A DNA stretch of 42,179 nucleotides from Desulfurobacterium indicum (lineage in GTDB: Bacteria; Aquificota; Aquificia; Desulfurobacteriales; Desulfurobacteriaceae): NCBI RefSeq assembly GCF_001968985.1, contig NZ_MOEN01000014.1, forward strand, positions 1 through 42,179, given 5' to 3'. The notes under the pieces are model-generated. The model had not been told where the DNA came from. It saw only the letters and a list, made by a program, of their open reading frames with translations, and did not search any database. Shown in pieces: positions 6,781 through 13,864 of the stretch (position 1 is its first letter; every line of letters starts with the position of its first letter). Made by a program: the position numbers and the translations under genes.

Positions 6781-9594
6781 ATGAAAGACAAAATCATTGT
6801 TAAAGGTGCAAGACAACATAACCTTAAAAATATAGATGTAGAAATCCCCAAAAACCAGCTGGTTGTAATAACAGGATTATCCGGTTCCGGGAAATCCTCT
6901 CTTGCTTTTGACACCCTTTATGCAGAAGGGCAGAGGAGATACGTAGAATCCTTGTCTTCTTATGCAAGGCAATTCCTACAGTTAATGGAAAAACCTGATG
7001 TTGACCTGATCGAAGGACTTTCGCCTGCAATATCTATAGAGCAAAAAACCGTTTCCAAAAATCCCCGCTCCACTGTCGGAACAACAACAGAGATACATGA
7101 TTACCTCAGACTCCTTTTTGCCAGAGCAGGCACACCTTTTTGCCCCAACTGTAATATTGAAATAAGGCCTCAAACTGTAGAAGAAGTCGTTGATAAAATT
7201 CTGAAGTTTACAGGAAAACGCATACTAATCCTTTCTCCCATAATAAGAGAACAGAAAGGAGAACATAAAAATCTCCTTGAACGGCTTGAAAAGCAGGGAT
7301 TCAGAAGAGTAAGAATAGACGGTAAAATCTATACAATCGACGAAGCTTTAAATCTAAAACTTGAGAAAAAAGTAAAACATACAATTGAAGTCATAGTCGA
7401 CAGGATAAAAGTAAAACCGGAAGATAAAATCAGAATCGCTGATTCTGTAGAAATAGCAATAAACCTTTCCGACGGCCTCGTATTAATCGTAGACTACGAT
7501 TCAAAAGAAGAAGAAATTCTAAGCACCAAAGGGGCTTGCCCGATATGTGGATTCAGTTTTAAAGAGATTTCCCCGAGGCTATTTTCGTTCAACAGCCCTC
7601 TTGGAGCATGTCCATCTTGTGGAGGCATAGGTTTTTCTCAAAAAATAGATCCCGATCTTCTTATAGACTGGGATAAACCAATTATAAATGCATTTAACAT
7701 CACAGAAAGAGCAAAGTTTGAATATATAAAAGACATGGTAGCTTCAGCATGCGATTATCTTGGTATAGCCCACGATACTCCGGCTGGAGAAATAGATAAA
7801 GAGGACCTTAATTTTATACTTTATGCCGACAGAGGAATTCTTAAAGTCTATAACACCATATCATGGAGCAGAGGAAATTATAAACCCTACTATTTTGAAG
7901 GAATCATAAGACATCTTGAAAGGCGTTACATAGAAACAGAATCAAATTCACTCAGAGACTACATAGAAGAATATATGAGAGAAGTCCCCTGTAAAACATG
8001 TAAGGGGAAAAGACTAAACAGAGAAGCTCTTTCTGTAAAAATAAAAAATCTTTCAATAGCAGATGTAGAAGAAATGAGCATAAAAGAAGCTTATGAATTT
8101 TTCAATAACCTCAAATTTACAGGAAAGAAAAAAATAATAGCTGAAAGAATCCTGAAAGAGATAAAAAATCGTCTCAAGTTTCTGCTTGACGTAGGATTAG
8201 ACTATCTAACTCTTGACAGACGGACAGGAACATTATCAGGCGGTGAATCACAAAGGATAAGATTAGCAACACAAATAGGTTCAAAGTTAACAGGTGTCCT
8301 TTATGTCCTCGACGAGCCCAGTATAGGACTCCACCAGAGAGACAACGACAGGCTAATAAAAACTTTAAAAGAACTGAGAGATATAGGAAATACCGTAATT
8401 GTAGTAGAACATGATATAGATACAATAAAAAATGCCGACCACGTAATAGATATGGGACCAGGAGCCGGTATTCACGGTGGTAAAATAGTAGCAGCTGGCA
8501 CTCCAGAAGAAATTGAAAAAAACGAAAACTCAATAACGGGAAAATACCTAGCCGGAAAATTAAAAATACCCGTGCCGGAAAAAAGAAGAAAACCAAACGG
8601 GAAATCTTTAAGAATAATAGGTGCAGCAGAACATAATCTTAAAAACATAACAGTCGAGTTCCCCCTGGGACTATTTATCTGCGTAACCGGAGTATCAGGT
8701 TCTGGAAAGTCAACTTTAATAAATGATATCCTTTACACTGCCCTTTCAAGAGAACTCTATAAAAGCAAAACAGTTCCTGGTAAACATAAAAAAATAGAAG
8801 GCTTAGAAGAAATAGACAAAGTGATTAACGTCGACCAATCTCCCATAGGAAGAATCCCTCGCTCAAATCCGGCAACCTATATAGGCGTTTTTGACTTCAT
8901 AAGAGAACTTTTTGCTGCCACACCGGAAGCAAGAGCGAGAGGATACAAGAAAGGAAGATTCTCTTTTAACGTCCCAGGCGGAAGATGCGAAGCCTGTAAA
9001 GGTGACGGAATGATAAAAGTTGAAATGCATTTTTTACCTGACGTTTACGTTACCTGCGATATCTGTGGAGGCAAAAGATATAACAGAGAAACACTCGAAA
9101 TAACATACAAAGGAAAAAATATATACGATGTTCTTGAAATGAGTGTAGAAGAAGCTCTGGAATTCTTTAAACATCATGACAAAATAGTGAGAAAATTAAA
9201 AACACTATACGACGTTGGACTTTCCTACATAAAATTGGGACAGCCTGCAACAACACTATCGGGGGGCGAAGCACAGAGAGTAAAACTTGCCAAAGAACTT
9301 TCAAAAAGGTCTACGGGAAAAACACTTTACATCCTTGACGAACCTACAACCGGACTTCACATACACGACGTTAAAAAACTTATAGAAGTCCTTCAAAAAT
9401 TGGTTGACAGAGGAAATACCGTAATAGTAATAGAACACAACATGGATTTTATAAAATGTGCCGACTACATAATCGATTTAGGGCCAGAAGGGGGAGATAA
9501 AGGAGGGGAAATTGTTGCAACAGGAACACCTGAAGAAATAGCAAGAACAAACACTTATACAGGTAGATATTTGAGAGATTATCTGGTATATTAA
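6781..9594 (+). CDS. uvrA: Excinuclease ABC subunit A
   Basis: A 937-aa ABC-type ATPase that recognises DNA lesions and loads UvrB in nucleotide excision repair. It has two tandem ABC modules. Module 1 has Walker [10 protein letters not shown] near residue 32, signature LSGGESQR and [13 protein letters not shown]. Module 2 has [17 protein letters not shown] and LDEPTTGLH. Zinc-binding cysteine pairs occur as CPNCN, CPICG...CPSCGG and CEACKGDG...[26 protein letters not shown] is the family signature. The ATG at 6781 has no clear Shine-Dalgarno; an AT-rich box (TACTATAAC) lies directly upstream, so the message may be leaderless. Neighbours are unrelated to repair. Confidence 0.97.
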
Positions 9595-9634: not shown

Positions 9635-11356
9635 ATGGGTAACTTTAAAGAACTCCTGGAAAACTATACTTTTTCAGAGAAAGAATTTCAGGAAGTAAAA
9701 AAACTGGAACCGCTATTTTCAAATGCTTTTGTAGAAAAACTAGGAGAAAACATAAATCAGTATGTAGCAGAACACTTCTACTCTTATTCCCAGGCAGCAA
9801 AAGCAAAAAAGATAGACAAAAAAATATTTGTAGAAACTGTAAAAAAGTTTATTTATGGATTCTTTAGCAGAGAAGAAATTTCAGGAACAATAGAATCTAT
9901 AGTTTCTGTTAATAAAAACTGGGACATTGAACAGTTAGAGTTTATCGAAGCGTATTTCTATTTTATAGAAAATCTCCTTACTAACTTGTATATAAGGACA
10001 AAAAACCAGTCTGATCTTCAAAAAAGCATAAAATCACTGACCAAACTTTTATTTATTATAGCCGTATATTTTCTTAAAAATTTTTGCATAAACAGAGATA
10101 TTTTTAGTAAATCGATTAACATAGACCCAATGACCGGATTCCTGTCACGCTACGCAATTCAAAAAATCTACTCAAAATGTTCTAAAAGTAAAAATTTATA
10201 CGCAATCTTATTCGATATAAGAAATCTATCCAATATTAATACCTACTTTGGATATGAAGTAGGAGATAGTGTAATAGTGTACTTAGCAGCATTTATAAAA
10301 AACTTTTTCATTCAGGAATTCTGTTCATGCTATCCAAACATTTTCAGACTTCAGGGAGACCAATTTATAGTATTCTTTCGAACATCGGAAAACATAAAAA
10401 CAAAAGTAAAAAATTTCCTAAGAAAATTTAAAAGTAAACCGATAAAAGTTGCTTTTAACGAAAACATTCTGCCTATTGACATTCCAGTGCTGGCAACGAT
10501 AATGAAAGTAGAGAATGAAGATATTTCTTCTCTCTTATGGACAATGGAAAACGCTATGAGAACCGTTAAAAAAGTAAAAAAAGACGGCTGTTTGATAATC
10601 GGTGCAGAACATAAAAAAAGATGCAAAAGAAAGAGAGAAAACGTAGAATTGGTAATAAACGCTATAAAAAAATATAGAATCTCTTTTGCCCTTCAAAAAA
10701 TGGTAAATTTGAAAACTGGGAATATTTTTGCATATGAAGTTTTAACAAGAATTCAAAACGAAGAAAACAATATAGTAAATGCAGAAGTATTTATTGACGA
10801 TATAAGCGTATATTCTTTAAACGAGGACCTTGATAAAATCGTCATAGAAAAAGCCTTAAACTACAAAAAAATGCAAAACATAAAAACACCTTTTTCAATA
10901 AACGTTTCCAATGCCCTATTGGAAGGAGAGATAGAATTTCTGGAAAAAATAATTAAAAAACTCAATATACCTGCTGAAGAAATAATTATAGAACTCATGG
11001 AACGACAGAATGTTGCTCTAATATCCAATCTCCATGAAAAGCTTAGTTATCTAAAAAAACTCGGTTTTAAAATTTTCATAGACGATTTCGGAGTCGATTA
11101 TTCAAATTTTCATCTAATAGAAATTCTACCGATAGATGGGATAAAAATTGACGGAAGGTTTGTAAAAAATATAGATAAAGAAATAATTGACCTGGAATTT
11201 ATAAAATTCATAGTCTCTCTTACAAAACAACTAAATATATCAGTTATTGCTGAATATGTTGAAAGAGAAGAAATCAAAAATATCCTTCTCAAAATATCAG
11301 ATTATCCAATAATGGGGCAAGGATACCTATTTGGAAAACCAGAAATTTTAATTTAA
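9635..11356 (+). CDS. EAL-domain protein with degenerate GGDEF and globin-sensor-like N-terminus (paralog 1)
   Basis: A 573-aa protein that is probably a cyclic-di-GMP phosphodiesterase. Residues 1-155 are helical and resemble a protoglobin/globin-coupled sensor (FSEKEFQEVKKLEPLF; NKNWDIEQLEFIEAY at 93-107). Where the second paralog has His93, this one has Asn93. Residues 163-325 form a GGDEF-like domain with FDIRNLSNINTYFGYEVGD, but the signature reads QGDQF (240-244) in place of GGDEF, so cyclase activity is unlikely. Residues 335-573 are EAL: EVL (E368), N423, E453, DD 483-484, K504, E540 and Q562 are all at expected places, so the phosphodiesterase looks intact. No membrane segment is evident. 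It begins 40 bp after uvrA with GGAG upstream. Confidence 0.8.
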   Translation: MGNFKELLENYTFSEKEFQEVKKLEPLFSNAFVEKLGENINQYVAEHFYSYSQAAKAKKIDKKIFVETVKKFIYGFFSREEISGTIESIVSVNKNWDIEQLEFIEAYFYFIENLLTNLYIRTKNQSDLQKSIKSLTKLLFIIAVYFLKNFCINRDIFSKSINIDPMTGFLSRYAIQKIYSKCSKSKNLYAILFDIRNLSNINTYFGYEVGDSVIVYLAAFIKNFFIQEFCSCYPNIFRLQGDQFIVFFRTSENIKTKVKNFLRKFKSKPIKVAFNENILPIDIPVLATIMKVENEDISSLLWTMENAMRTVKKVKKDGCLIIGAEHKKRCKRKRENVELVINAIKKYRISFALQKMVNLKTGNIFAYEVLTRIQNEENNIVNAEVFIDDISVYSLNEDLDKIVIEKALNYKKMQNIKTPFSINVSNALLEGEIEFLEKIIKKLNIPAEEIIIELMERQNVALISNLHEKLSYLKKLGFKIFIDDFGVDYSNFHLIEILPIDGIKIDGRFVKNIDKEIIDLEFIKFIVSLTKQLNISVIAEYVEREEIKNILLKISDYPIMGQGYLFGKPEILI

Positions 11357-11411
11357 ACAGAATACTTTCTTAACCAATTGACTAAAGCGATTAATTTAAA
11401 GTGCATTATTA

Positions 11412-11440
11412 TTGACTTTTGGAGAAATTAATGTTAAATT
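11412..11440 (+). promoter_or_regulatory. Putative sigma70-type promoter for the second EAL gene
   Basis: TTGACT (11412-11417), 17-bp spacer, TAAATT (11435-11440), located 55 bp before the chosen start codon in the 138-bp gap between the two paralogs. Seen by eye only. Confidence 0.4.
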
Positions 11441-11494
11441 TAGTTGTAAATTTGTTCAACCAATATTCGCTTTTTGAAAAGTGGGGGAAAGTTT

Positions 11495-13222
11495 ATGAAA
11501 CTTCTCAGGGAGCTTTTTCAGGTATATAACTTCAGACCAGAAGATTTTAAAGAAATTCAAGAACTTAAAAAATTTTTTAATTCTGAACAAATAGCAAAAA
11601 TAGGGAAAGAATTAAAAGCAGAAGTAATCGATAAATTTCCAGAATATAAAAACCTTCTAAAAAATAGGGGTGTCAACAATGAACTTTTCGCAGAAACAAT
11701 TAGTGATTTTTTTAATTCAATTTTTGAAGCAGAATCACTAACTGTAACAACCTCTACAATAATAAAAACACACAAAAACTGGAACATCAAAAGCCTTGAT
11801 TTTATAGAAGTTTACTTTTCGTTTTCAGAAAAAATTCTCAGTATTCTCTATGATATATCCTCAAAACATCCAGAACTTATAAAAAATATTAGAAAATTAA
11901 CAAGGCTACTTTTCATAATAGCCGTTTACTTTTTACGTTCCTCCTGTAAAACAAACGCAGAACAAACAATTACAGCAGCTGATCCTATGACAGGACTACC
12001 TTCAAGATATAATATTCAAAAAATATTTCCTGAATGTGTAAACAAAGACTCTCTATTCGCTGTTGTTTTTGACATAAGAGGATTTGCAAACATAAACACA
12101 TACTTTGGCTACGAGGTAGGAGATAGTGTAATAATTTATTTCGCTACATTTTTGAAAGAAACTTTTTTAGAGGAGTTCTGTAAAGGCTATCCTAACATTT
12201 TCAGACTTCAAGGGGACCAATTTTTCGTACTCATCAAAGGTACCCAGGAAAAAGTCGAAGAAAAAGTTAAACGTTTTTTAGAAAAAATAAAAGGAAAACC
12301 TATAAAAATCCCTCTCGAGGGAGACAGACATACCCTTGACATAATACTAATATCCGTAGGAACAAATGTAAATGTGTGCCAAGACATATCAAACCTGCTG
12401 TGGATACTGGAAAATTCTCTCAGAGAGTTTAAAAAAACACAAAAAGACGGATTCTTTTTCATTGATGAAACGATTAAAGAAAGATGCCAGAGAAGAAAAG
12501 AAAACGTAGCTCTCGTAATAAAAGCAATAAAAGAAAATAGAGTAACCTTTGCTTTTCAAAAGATTATAGACTTATACTCAGGAGATATTTTTGCGTATGA
12601 GGTCCTCGCAAGAATAAAAACAAAAGACGGAAAGCTCATACCTGCAGGTGTTTTTATAGATGACATCAGCTTTTACTCCCTTGACGGAGACCTTGACAAA
12701 ATAGTTATAGAAGAAGCTATAAAGTACAAGGCAAAAACAGGAATGAAAGAAAGGCTTTCAATAAACATTTCAAATGCTCTACTTGAAGGAAATGTAGATC
12801 TCCTTGAAAGAGTAACAAGAGAAAATGGAGTTCCTCCCAAAGAAATAATAATAGAACTTATGGAAAGACAAAACTTAACTCTAATTTCTCACCTTAAAGA
12901 AAAAATAGCTTACTTGAAAAAACTTGGATTCAAGATATTTATAGATGATTTTGGAGTTGATTATGCAAATTTCCATCTTATAGAAACCCTGGCAATAGAC
13001 GGAATAAAAATTGATGGAAGATTTGTAAGAAACATCGATAAAAAAATCCTTGACAGAGAATTTGTTGAATTTGTATTATCCGTCGCGCGCCAGCTCAAAG
13101 TGGCCGTTGTGGCAGAATACATAGAAAACCAACAAATACTCAAAATAATAAAAGACCTGGCGAAAGATTTTAACGTTCTCGGACAAGGATACTTATTTGG
13201 CAAACCGGAAGTTAAAGAATAA
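11495..13222 (+). CDS. EAL-domain protein with degenerate GGDEF and globin-sensor-like N-terminus (paralog 2)
   Basis: A 575-aa tandem paralog of the preceding gene, alike over its whole length. The N-terminal helical domain carries TIIKTHKNWNIKSLDFIEVY with His93, the spot where a globin-coupled sensor has its heme-ligating His. The heme assignment is inference. The GGDEF-like domain again reads RLQGDQF. The EAL half keeps YEVLAR, SINISNALLEG, ELMERQ, IDDFGVDYANF, DGIKIDG, AEYIE and GQGYLFGKP. ATG 11495 has a GGGGGAAAG site just upstream; a TTG at 11474 would add seven residues and is less likely. It probably has its own promoter. It appears to have arisen by tandem duplication, with the sensor domains more diverged than the EAL halves. 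Confidence 0.8.
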   Translation: MKLLRELFQVYNFRPEDFKEIQELKKFFNSEQIAKIGKELKAEVIDKFPEYKNLLKNRGVNNELFAETISDFFNSIFEAESLTVTTSTIIKTHKNWNIKSLDFIEVYFSFSEKILSILYDISSKHPELIKNIRKLTRLLFIIAVYFLRSSCKTNAEQTITAADPMTGLPSRYNIQKIFPECVNKDSLFAVVFDIRGFANINTYFGYEVGDSVIIYFATFLKETFLEEFCKGYPNIFRLQGDQFFVLIKGTQEKVEEKVKRFLEKIKGKPIKIPLEGDRHTLDIILISVGTNVNVCQDISNLLWILENSLREFKKTQKDGFFFIDETIKERCQRRKENVALVIKAIKENRVTFAFQKIIDLYSGDIFAYEVLARIKTKDGKLIPAGVFIDDISFYSLDGDLDKIVIEEAIKYKAKTGMKERLSINISNALLEGNVDLLERVTRENGVPPKEIIIELMERQNLTLISHLKEKIAYLKKLGFKIFIDDFGVDYANFHLIETLAIDGIKIDGRFVRNIDKKILDREFVEFVLSVARQLKVAVVAEYIENQQILKIIKDLAKDFNVLGQGYLFGKPEVKE

Positions 13223-13276: not shown

Positions 13277-13864
13277 GTGAAGCTTAGAATAGATGGTAAA
13301 GAGCATAAAATCAAAATAGAAAAAAGGAAATATAAAAACCTAAAAGAAATGTTGAGAATTGTTGAATTCAAATATCTATTCCCCGAAAGAGTCATAAAAA
13401 GTATAGAAGTAGAAGGAAAAGCAATCCATCCAGAATACCTGGGAAGTCTCAACGACGTAACAGATATTAATATCATTACAGACTCAACAGTAAACTTTCT
13501 CAAAAACCATATAGAACTTTCCATAATAGCTCTGGATTCTGTAAACGGTGCAATAGAAATGATAATAGAAACCTTTGAAGCATCAGAAGATCTTGCTAAA
13601 CTTCACATTAATTATATTGCAGATTCCGTAATGAAAACAGTAGAAATACTGGAAAAGGGAAGTGTTTTCCTGCCTATAGTTGAAGGAACTGACGAAGCTA
13701 TCCTTGAAATCGAGGAAAAAATTCTCCGTTTAAATGAAATAAAAGAAGCTGACGAAATGGTAAAATTCTTAGAAAGTGACTTTATAAAGGGTGTAGAAAG
13801 GTGGAAAACATTCTTAGTAAAAATTTTATCAACCATTAATAATTCCTCTATGGAGACTCATTAA
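13277..13864 (+). CDS. Unknown protein, first gene of the prepilin peptidase operon
   Basis: A 195-aa protein I do not recognise. GTG start with GGAGG 7 bases upstream. The first ~70 residues look like a small beta/alpha domain (MKLRIDGKEHKIKIEKRKYK...VIKSIEVEGKAIHPEYLGSL..VTDINIITDS). The rest (~75-195) is strongly helical and acidic, with heptad-like stretches such as VEILEKGSVFLPIVEG and ILEIEEKILRLNEIKEADEMVKFLE. There is no signal peptide or membrane segment, so it is probably cytoplasmic. Its stop overlaps the prepilin peptidase start by one base (TAATG), implying co-transcription and coupled translation. A role linked to type IV pilus or secretion-system assembly is a context inference only. 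Confidence 0.65.
   Translation: MKLRIDGKEHKIKIEKRKYKNLKEMLRIVEFKYLFPERVIKSIEVEGKAIHPEYLGSLNDVTDINIITDSTVNFLKNHIELSIIALDSVNGAIEMIIETFEASEDLAKLHINYIADSVMKTVEILEKGSVFLPIVEGTDEAILEIEEKILRLNEIKEADEMVKFLESDFIKGVERWKTFLVKILSTINNSSMETH

Follow-up and report, generated by a model that had tools for sequence, protein, structure and literature searches.

The locus

The window, by which we mean the whole 42,179-nucleotide stretch of DNA that was analysed from Desulfurobacterium indicum, a heat-loving anaerobe, carries two tandem genes which are flanked on one side by uvrA (6781-9594) and on the other by an unannotated 195-aa open reading frame followed by a prepilin peptidase gene. Both genes encode proteins with a globin-like N-terminal domain, a degenerate GGDEF domain and an EAL domain, in that order, and the two products are 50% identical when aligned from end to end. 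The open reading frame of copy 2 can start at 11474 or 11495; the ATG at 11495 has GGGGGAAAG upstream and yields a protein of 575 aa. The features are as follows.

9635..11356, + strand: copy 1, globin-like N-terminal domain with Asn93, degenerate GGDEF and EAL; 573 aa, ATG start
9635..10090, + strand: globin-like sensor domain of copy 1, approximately residues 1-152, lacking a His at the proximal position (AlphaFold2, Foldseek, alignment)
9911..9913, + strand: Asn93 codon of copy 1, putative heme-ligand position (alignment)
10352..10366, + strand: QGDQF of copy 1, degenerate GGDEF motif, residues 240-244 (alignment)
10655..11353, + strand: EAL domain of copy 1, approximately residues 341-573, loop 6 DDFGVDYSNF (Pfam PF00563, 155 bits)
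11495..13222, + strand: copy 2, globin-like N-terminal domain with His93, degenerate GGDEF and EAL; 575 aa
11495..11950, + strand: globin-like sensor domain of copy 2, approximately residues 1-152 (AlphaFold2, Foldseek, profile match to protoglobins)
11771..11773, + strand: His93 codon of copy 2, putative proximal heme ligand (alignment, profile pairing)
12209..12223, + strand: QGDQF of copy 2, degenerate GGDEF motif, residues 239-243 (alignment)
12518..13219, + strand: EAL domain of copy 2, approximately residues 342-575, loop 6 DDFGVDYANF (Pfam PF00563, 166 bits)

The 195-aa open reading frame (13277-13864, + strand) yielded no Pfam or NCBIfam match. In each of the four genomes examined from the genus it adjoins the EAL gene or genes, with 58-80% identity, and is always located between them and the prepilin peptidase gene.

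The GGDEF and EAL domains

An earlier note on this DNA had claimed that both proteins have lost the GGDEF motif and have kept the EAL residues, and both parts of the claim hold. The GGDEF domains are recognised by Pfam (47 bits for copy 1 and 50 bits for copy 2), the active cyclase motif GG(D/E)EF is missing, and alignment places QGDQF at this site in both copies, while most of the sister subfamily carries a QNDEF-type sequence there. In the EAL domains all nine catalytic and metal-binding residues are present in both copies, namely E369, R373, N424, E454, D484, D485, K505, E541 and Q564 in the numbering of copy 2. The loop 6 consensus DDFG(T/A)GYSS is matched by neither protein and, since both have DDFGVD at a place where EAL domains usually carry DDFGTG, their activity could be weak.

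The degenerate GGDEF domains (residues 160-318; approximately 10112-10588 and 11972-12448) are 84-88% identical between species and they retain D193 and D241. Such high conservation of a domain that is no ordinary cyclase suggests a structural or allosteric role, and the two retained aspartates suggest, at the level of sequence, that it may bind a nucleotide or control dimerisation without cyclase activity. The globin-like domain, ending at about residue 152, joins the GGDEF domain, starting at about residue 160, almost directly and there is no space for a middle domain.

A divergent globin at the N-terminus

Neither window protein gave a match above threshold in residues 1-155, or any globin match, on scanning with Pfam, neither reached the curated cut-off of PF11563, and a search of the PDB with a single N-domain sequence returned only noise. 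Because the single-sequence PDB search and the Pfam scan gave no globin match, a family profile was required. Weak indications were present among the relatives: four of 13 touched Pfam Protoglobin, with a best E-value of 0.0023 and, in a PF11563 search of 22 genomes, both tandem orthologs were matched over profile positions 3-143 with E-values of 0.010 and 0.052.

In profile-profile comparisons the N-domain family matched the canonical protoglobins of the same GTDB family with a probability of 95.5% (E-value 1.6e-8), and the whole-family profile matched a wider protoglobin set with 97.1%. A profile of the copy 1 and copy 2 subfamily alone reached 69% against the protoglobins of the same GTDB family, as against 95.5% for the wider set. 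In control comparisons, 60 column-shuffled profiles gave at most 2.5% and a reversed profile 0.5%. When run over 136 genomes of the phylum, the N-domain profile retrieved its own family first and then 14 weaker places (E-values 1e-6 to 7e-5); all six of these that were checked with Pfam carried Protoglobin above cut-off (E-values 2.6e-10 to 9.9e-33), and we read the remaining weaker matches as the same protoglobins.

AlphaFold2 models, built from residues 1-163/164 with an alignment of five sequences, were all-helical with the helices in globin order (pLDDT 89.4 for copy 2 and 88.3 for copy 1). The top Foldseek matches were AfGcHK, GsGCS and HemAT for the copy 2 model, with TM scores of 0.71-0.76, and HemAT and GsGCS for the copy 1 model; the probability was 1.00 in each case and the TM scores of both copies range over 0.70-0.76. 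Despite this probability the Foldseek E-values were weak, all exceeding 0.001 with a best value of 0.015. The likeness of the N-terminal 150 or so residues to protoglobins, proposed in the earlier note, is thus borne out by the profile comparisons (95.5-97.1%), and the comparison of predicted structures with globin-coupled sensors, which had been put forward as a check, found a globin-like fold in both copies. On the evidence of profiles and models, residues 1 to about 150 of both proteins are assigned to a divergent globin-coupled-sensor globin that lies below Pfam detection. Copy 1, as modelled, has the globin fold without a proximal His and conforms to the pattern of a non-heme globin sensor.

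Position 93 and the putative heme pocket

The residues in alignment column 93, which exceeds every other column of the 150-residue domain in relative entropy, are HNHNHHHHHHHHHHHHH. His93 is present in 15 of the 17 relatives and Asn is confined to copy 1 and its ortholog, L029; His93 of copy 2 and Asn93 of copy 1, earlier said to occupy the same place, do fall within one alignment column. In the profile-profile alignments H93 falls opposite the His in I-G-x-x-H-V-x-x-G-I-P, a protoglobin motif, and this motif His aligns, in turn, with a His of the GsGCS and HemAT structures. The proximal ligand of HemAT is His123 (PMC13401364) and that of DosC is His98 (PMC5549716), which corresponds to the H93 place. 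When H93 was masked to Ala the protoglobin match persisted (93.8-96.4%) and the local register slipped by three residues, so that the exact F8 pairing rests partly on the His itself. Collectively, the alignments support H93 as the likely equivalent of the proximal, F8-type His, conserved outside the copy 1 clade.

Other pocket residues are informative about the kind of signal. Thr68, mostly kept in the family, corresponds in the alignment to the HemAT-type Thr on helix E, which is Thr95 when counted on the printed sequence. The distal Tyr B10 of O2-sensing globin-coupled sensors has no conserved counterpart in the aligned columns, copy 2 having Lys41/Ala42 there and copy 1 Asn41/Gln42. Owing to the lack of this Tyr, O2 sensing of the DosC kind would not be expected if heme is bound, and NO, CO or a redox change would be at least as likely to constitute the signal.

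Copy 1 and its ortholog share the sequence EHFY at residues 46-49 (9770-9781 in the window). Position 49, a Pro in most of the family and the second most conserved column, is replaced in copy 1, and His47 of copy 1 and L029 is absent from copy 2, which has Lys47, and from the copy 2 ortholog, L009.

Relatives, duplication and selection

Seventeen relatives sharing the N-terminal domain were found, including both copies and one sequence shortened by a contig end, and all of them fall within the same order. A scan of the genome collection detected members only in the Desulfurobacteriaceae; the other matches span GGDEF only. Two congeners carry, between uvrA and the 195-aa open reading frame with its adjoining prepilin peptidase gene, one copy bearing His93, and the tandem pair is found at this locus in the genome of the window and in one congener. 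Tandem copies at a place where two congeners hold a single His-bearing gene bear out the duplication that had been proposed. His93 is likewise found in a third paralog of this genome, a more distant one on contig C41.

Copies 1 and 2 are probably sisters in sequence trees (support 82/84), with neither alternative tree being rejected (p-AU 0.18 and 0.16), and a single His to Asn change on the copy 1 stem is obtained under any of the trees tested. With a length of 0.55 versus 0.23 for the copy 2 stem, it shows that copy 1 evolved about 2.4 times as fast after the duplication. Fifty-six columns are near-invariant, with at least 90% conservation among the other family members. Copy 1 differs at six of these, five of them mildly (L/F, F/L, L/I, L/M and A/T) with H93N as the sole radical change, and copy 2 differs mildly at one. 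Between species, the dN of the globin domain is 0.18 for copy 1, where dS is saturated, and 0.21 for copy 2, dS being high or saturated. A dN of this size at saturated dS, similar to that of copy 2, indicates that copy 1 is not decaying and, judged from these substitution patterns between species, purifying selection acts on both copies.

Proposed explanation and alternatives

The explanation that we favour, and consider fairly likely, is that the genes are tandem paralogs encoding c-di-GMP phosphodiesterases with a divergent globin-coupled-sensor globin, in which copy 2 carries a heme-ligating His93 and copy 1 has lost the ligand. It is reasonable to infer that heme binding and gas sensing persist in copy 2 and have been lost from copy 1. 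In the ancestral family and in copy 2, His93 on helix F would most likely ligate heme b, and the signal would be the binding of a small ligand (NO, CO or O2) or a change in the redox state of the iron. This signal would be relayed through the presumably dimerising G and H helices and would tune, in whichever direction the regulation may run, the hydrolysis of c-di-GMP by the EAL domain, which is catalytically complete by its residues; no cyclase activity is expected of the degenerate GGDEF domain. After duplication the ligand of copy 1 would have changed to Asn. The protein probably still adopts the globin fold but holds no His-ligated heme, and it may persist as a form of the enzyme that is constitutive, is tuned differently or acts as a partner subunit. 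An extension of this scheme, which we think quite unlikely, is that a heme-free copy 1 and a heme-bearing copy 2 form a heterodimer through their globin G and H helices, such that the gas signal from one heme sets two EAL domains; if true, this would be a natural half-heme globin-coupled sensor.

The whole family could instead constitute a non-heme, globin-like sensor of the kind described for RsbR of Bacillus, with H93 kept for a signalling contact, a metal or a hydrogen bond, and neither copy binding heme. N-terminal domains of the non-heme globin type are known from RsbR proteins (PMC9237108), and the missing Tyr B10 and a sequence too divergent for Pfam Protoglobin are consistent with such a reading. 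However, no column of the domain is more conserved than that of H93, which aligns with the proximal His of protoglobins, and T68 is largely retained as well. A non-heme globin would not need the His that 15 of 17 sequences still carry, and we regard this alternative as unlikely.

Alternatively, copy 1 may still bind heme through another residue such as His47 at the end of helix B, and the pair would then differ in ligand chemistry. His47 does distinguish copy 1 and its ortholog from copy 2 and its ortholog, and the globin domains of the two copies are equally constrained, but the neighbouring Pro49 is also replaced and a general remodelling of the B/C corner fits equally well. Moreover, no globin is known to us in which the only axial ligand lies at the end of helix B, and this proposal is very unlikely in our judgement. 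An N-terminal helical bundle unrelated to globins, and resembling them by coincidence, would agree with the lack of an above-threshold Pfam match for either window protein and with the noise returned by single-sequence PDB searches, but sequence profiles and predicted structure concur and the shuffled and reversed controls were negative. The profile, Foldseek and control results largely refute this last explanation, which we consider extremely improbable.

Under the favoured explanation, with a heme-ligating copy 2 and a ligand-less copy 1, the pair resembles natural with-heme and without-heme versions of one sensor. The occurrence of a His/Asn twin within one locus, together with single-copy His-bearing congeners that likely represent the ancestral state, amounts to a natural experiment which would allow a direct test of how a heme sensor becomes a heme-free sensor while both copies remain under selection. 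The family also adds a globin lineage, missed by current domain libraries and fused to c-di-GMP turnover, from an anaerobic vent group of the Aquificota, and such domains may lie hidden in further GGDEF-EAL proteins whose annotation lists no sensor.

Comparison with known systems

Globin-GGDEF-EAL proteins are already known: DcpG of Paenibacillus dendritiformis, as described in PMC10882959, is a globin-coupled sensor with GGDEF and EAL outputs on a single chain and is bifunctional, acting as a cyclase with NO and as a phosphodiesterase with O2. The window proteins share this domain order and differ from DcpG in their degenerate GGDEF, in having no space for a middle domain, in a globin lying below Pfam detection and in one copy being without the proximal His. 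The divergent globin, the lack of a middle domain and of a distal Tyr, and the His/Asn twin together set the window pair apart within this known kind.

The globin-coupled-sensor fold is also shared with DosC/YddV (EcGReg) and BpeGReg, with a Foldseek TM score of about 0.6 to DosC, but those proteins have a cyclase output and a middle domain, and Tyr43 of DosC, which stabilises O2, is without counterpart in either copy (PMC5549716). The GCS-HD-GYP protein of Vibrio fluvialis resembles the window proteins as a globin-gated c-di-GMP phosphodiesterase, a function that is predicted for the latter, but it has an HD-GYP output and conserved Tyr49 and His103 (PMC10882959), whereas here the output is EAL and the distal Tyr is lacking. 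The non-heme N-terminal domains of RsbR have a globin fold without heme, as is proposed for copy 1, but they serve a stressosome output that is not EAL (PMC9237108), whereas copy 1 is an EAL enzyme paired with a His-bearing tandem twin. Finally, the canonical protoglobins (PF11563) of the same genome and phylum are homologous by profile, with the proximal His aligned, at about 15% identity; they keep Tyr B10 and a G-x-Y-D loop before helix F and have a PsiE-like membrane output.

Heme supply and other protoglobins of the phylum

Heme is plausibly available to the organism because the genome encodes a ferrochelatase (E-value 5e-89) and a canonical protoglobin-PsiE protein. Relatives of AhbD sought in the genome all fell below the cut-off; one of the window genes (262-1440, - strand) encodes a radical SAM protein similar to this heme b synthase, scoring 388 bits against a curated cut-off of 500.

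Protoglobin was found above cut-off in 19 of the 22 genomes of the GTDB family, and the canonical form, fused to a PsiE-like membrane domain, occurs widely across the phylum. A protoglobin-PAS protein of 251 aa from another family of the phylum (L125) apparently carries a Glu at the place of the proximal His, reading ELSINIP versus HVDIGLP, and this may represent an independent loss of the heme ligand.
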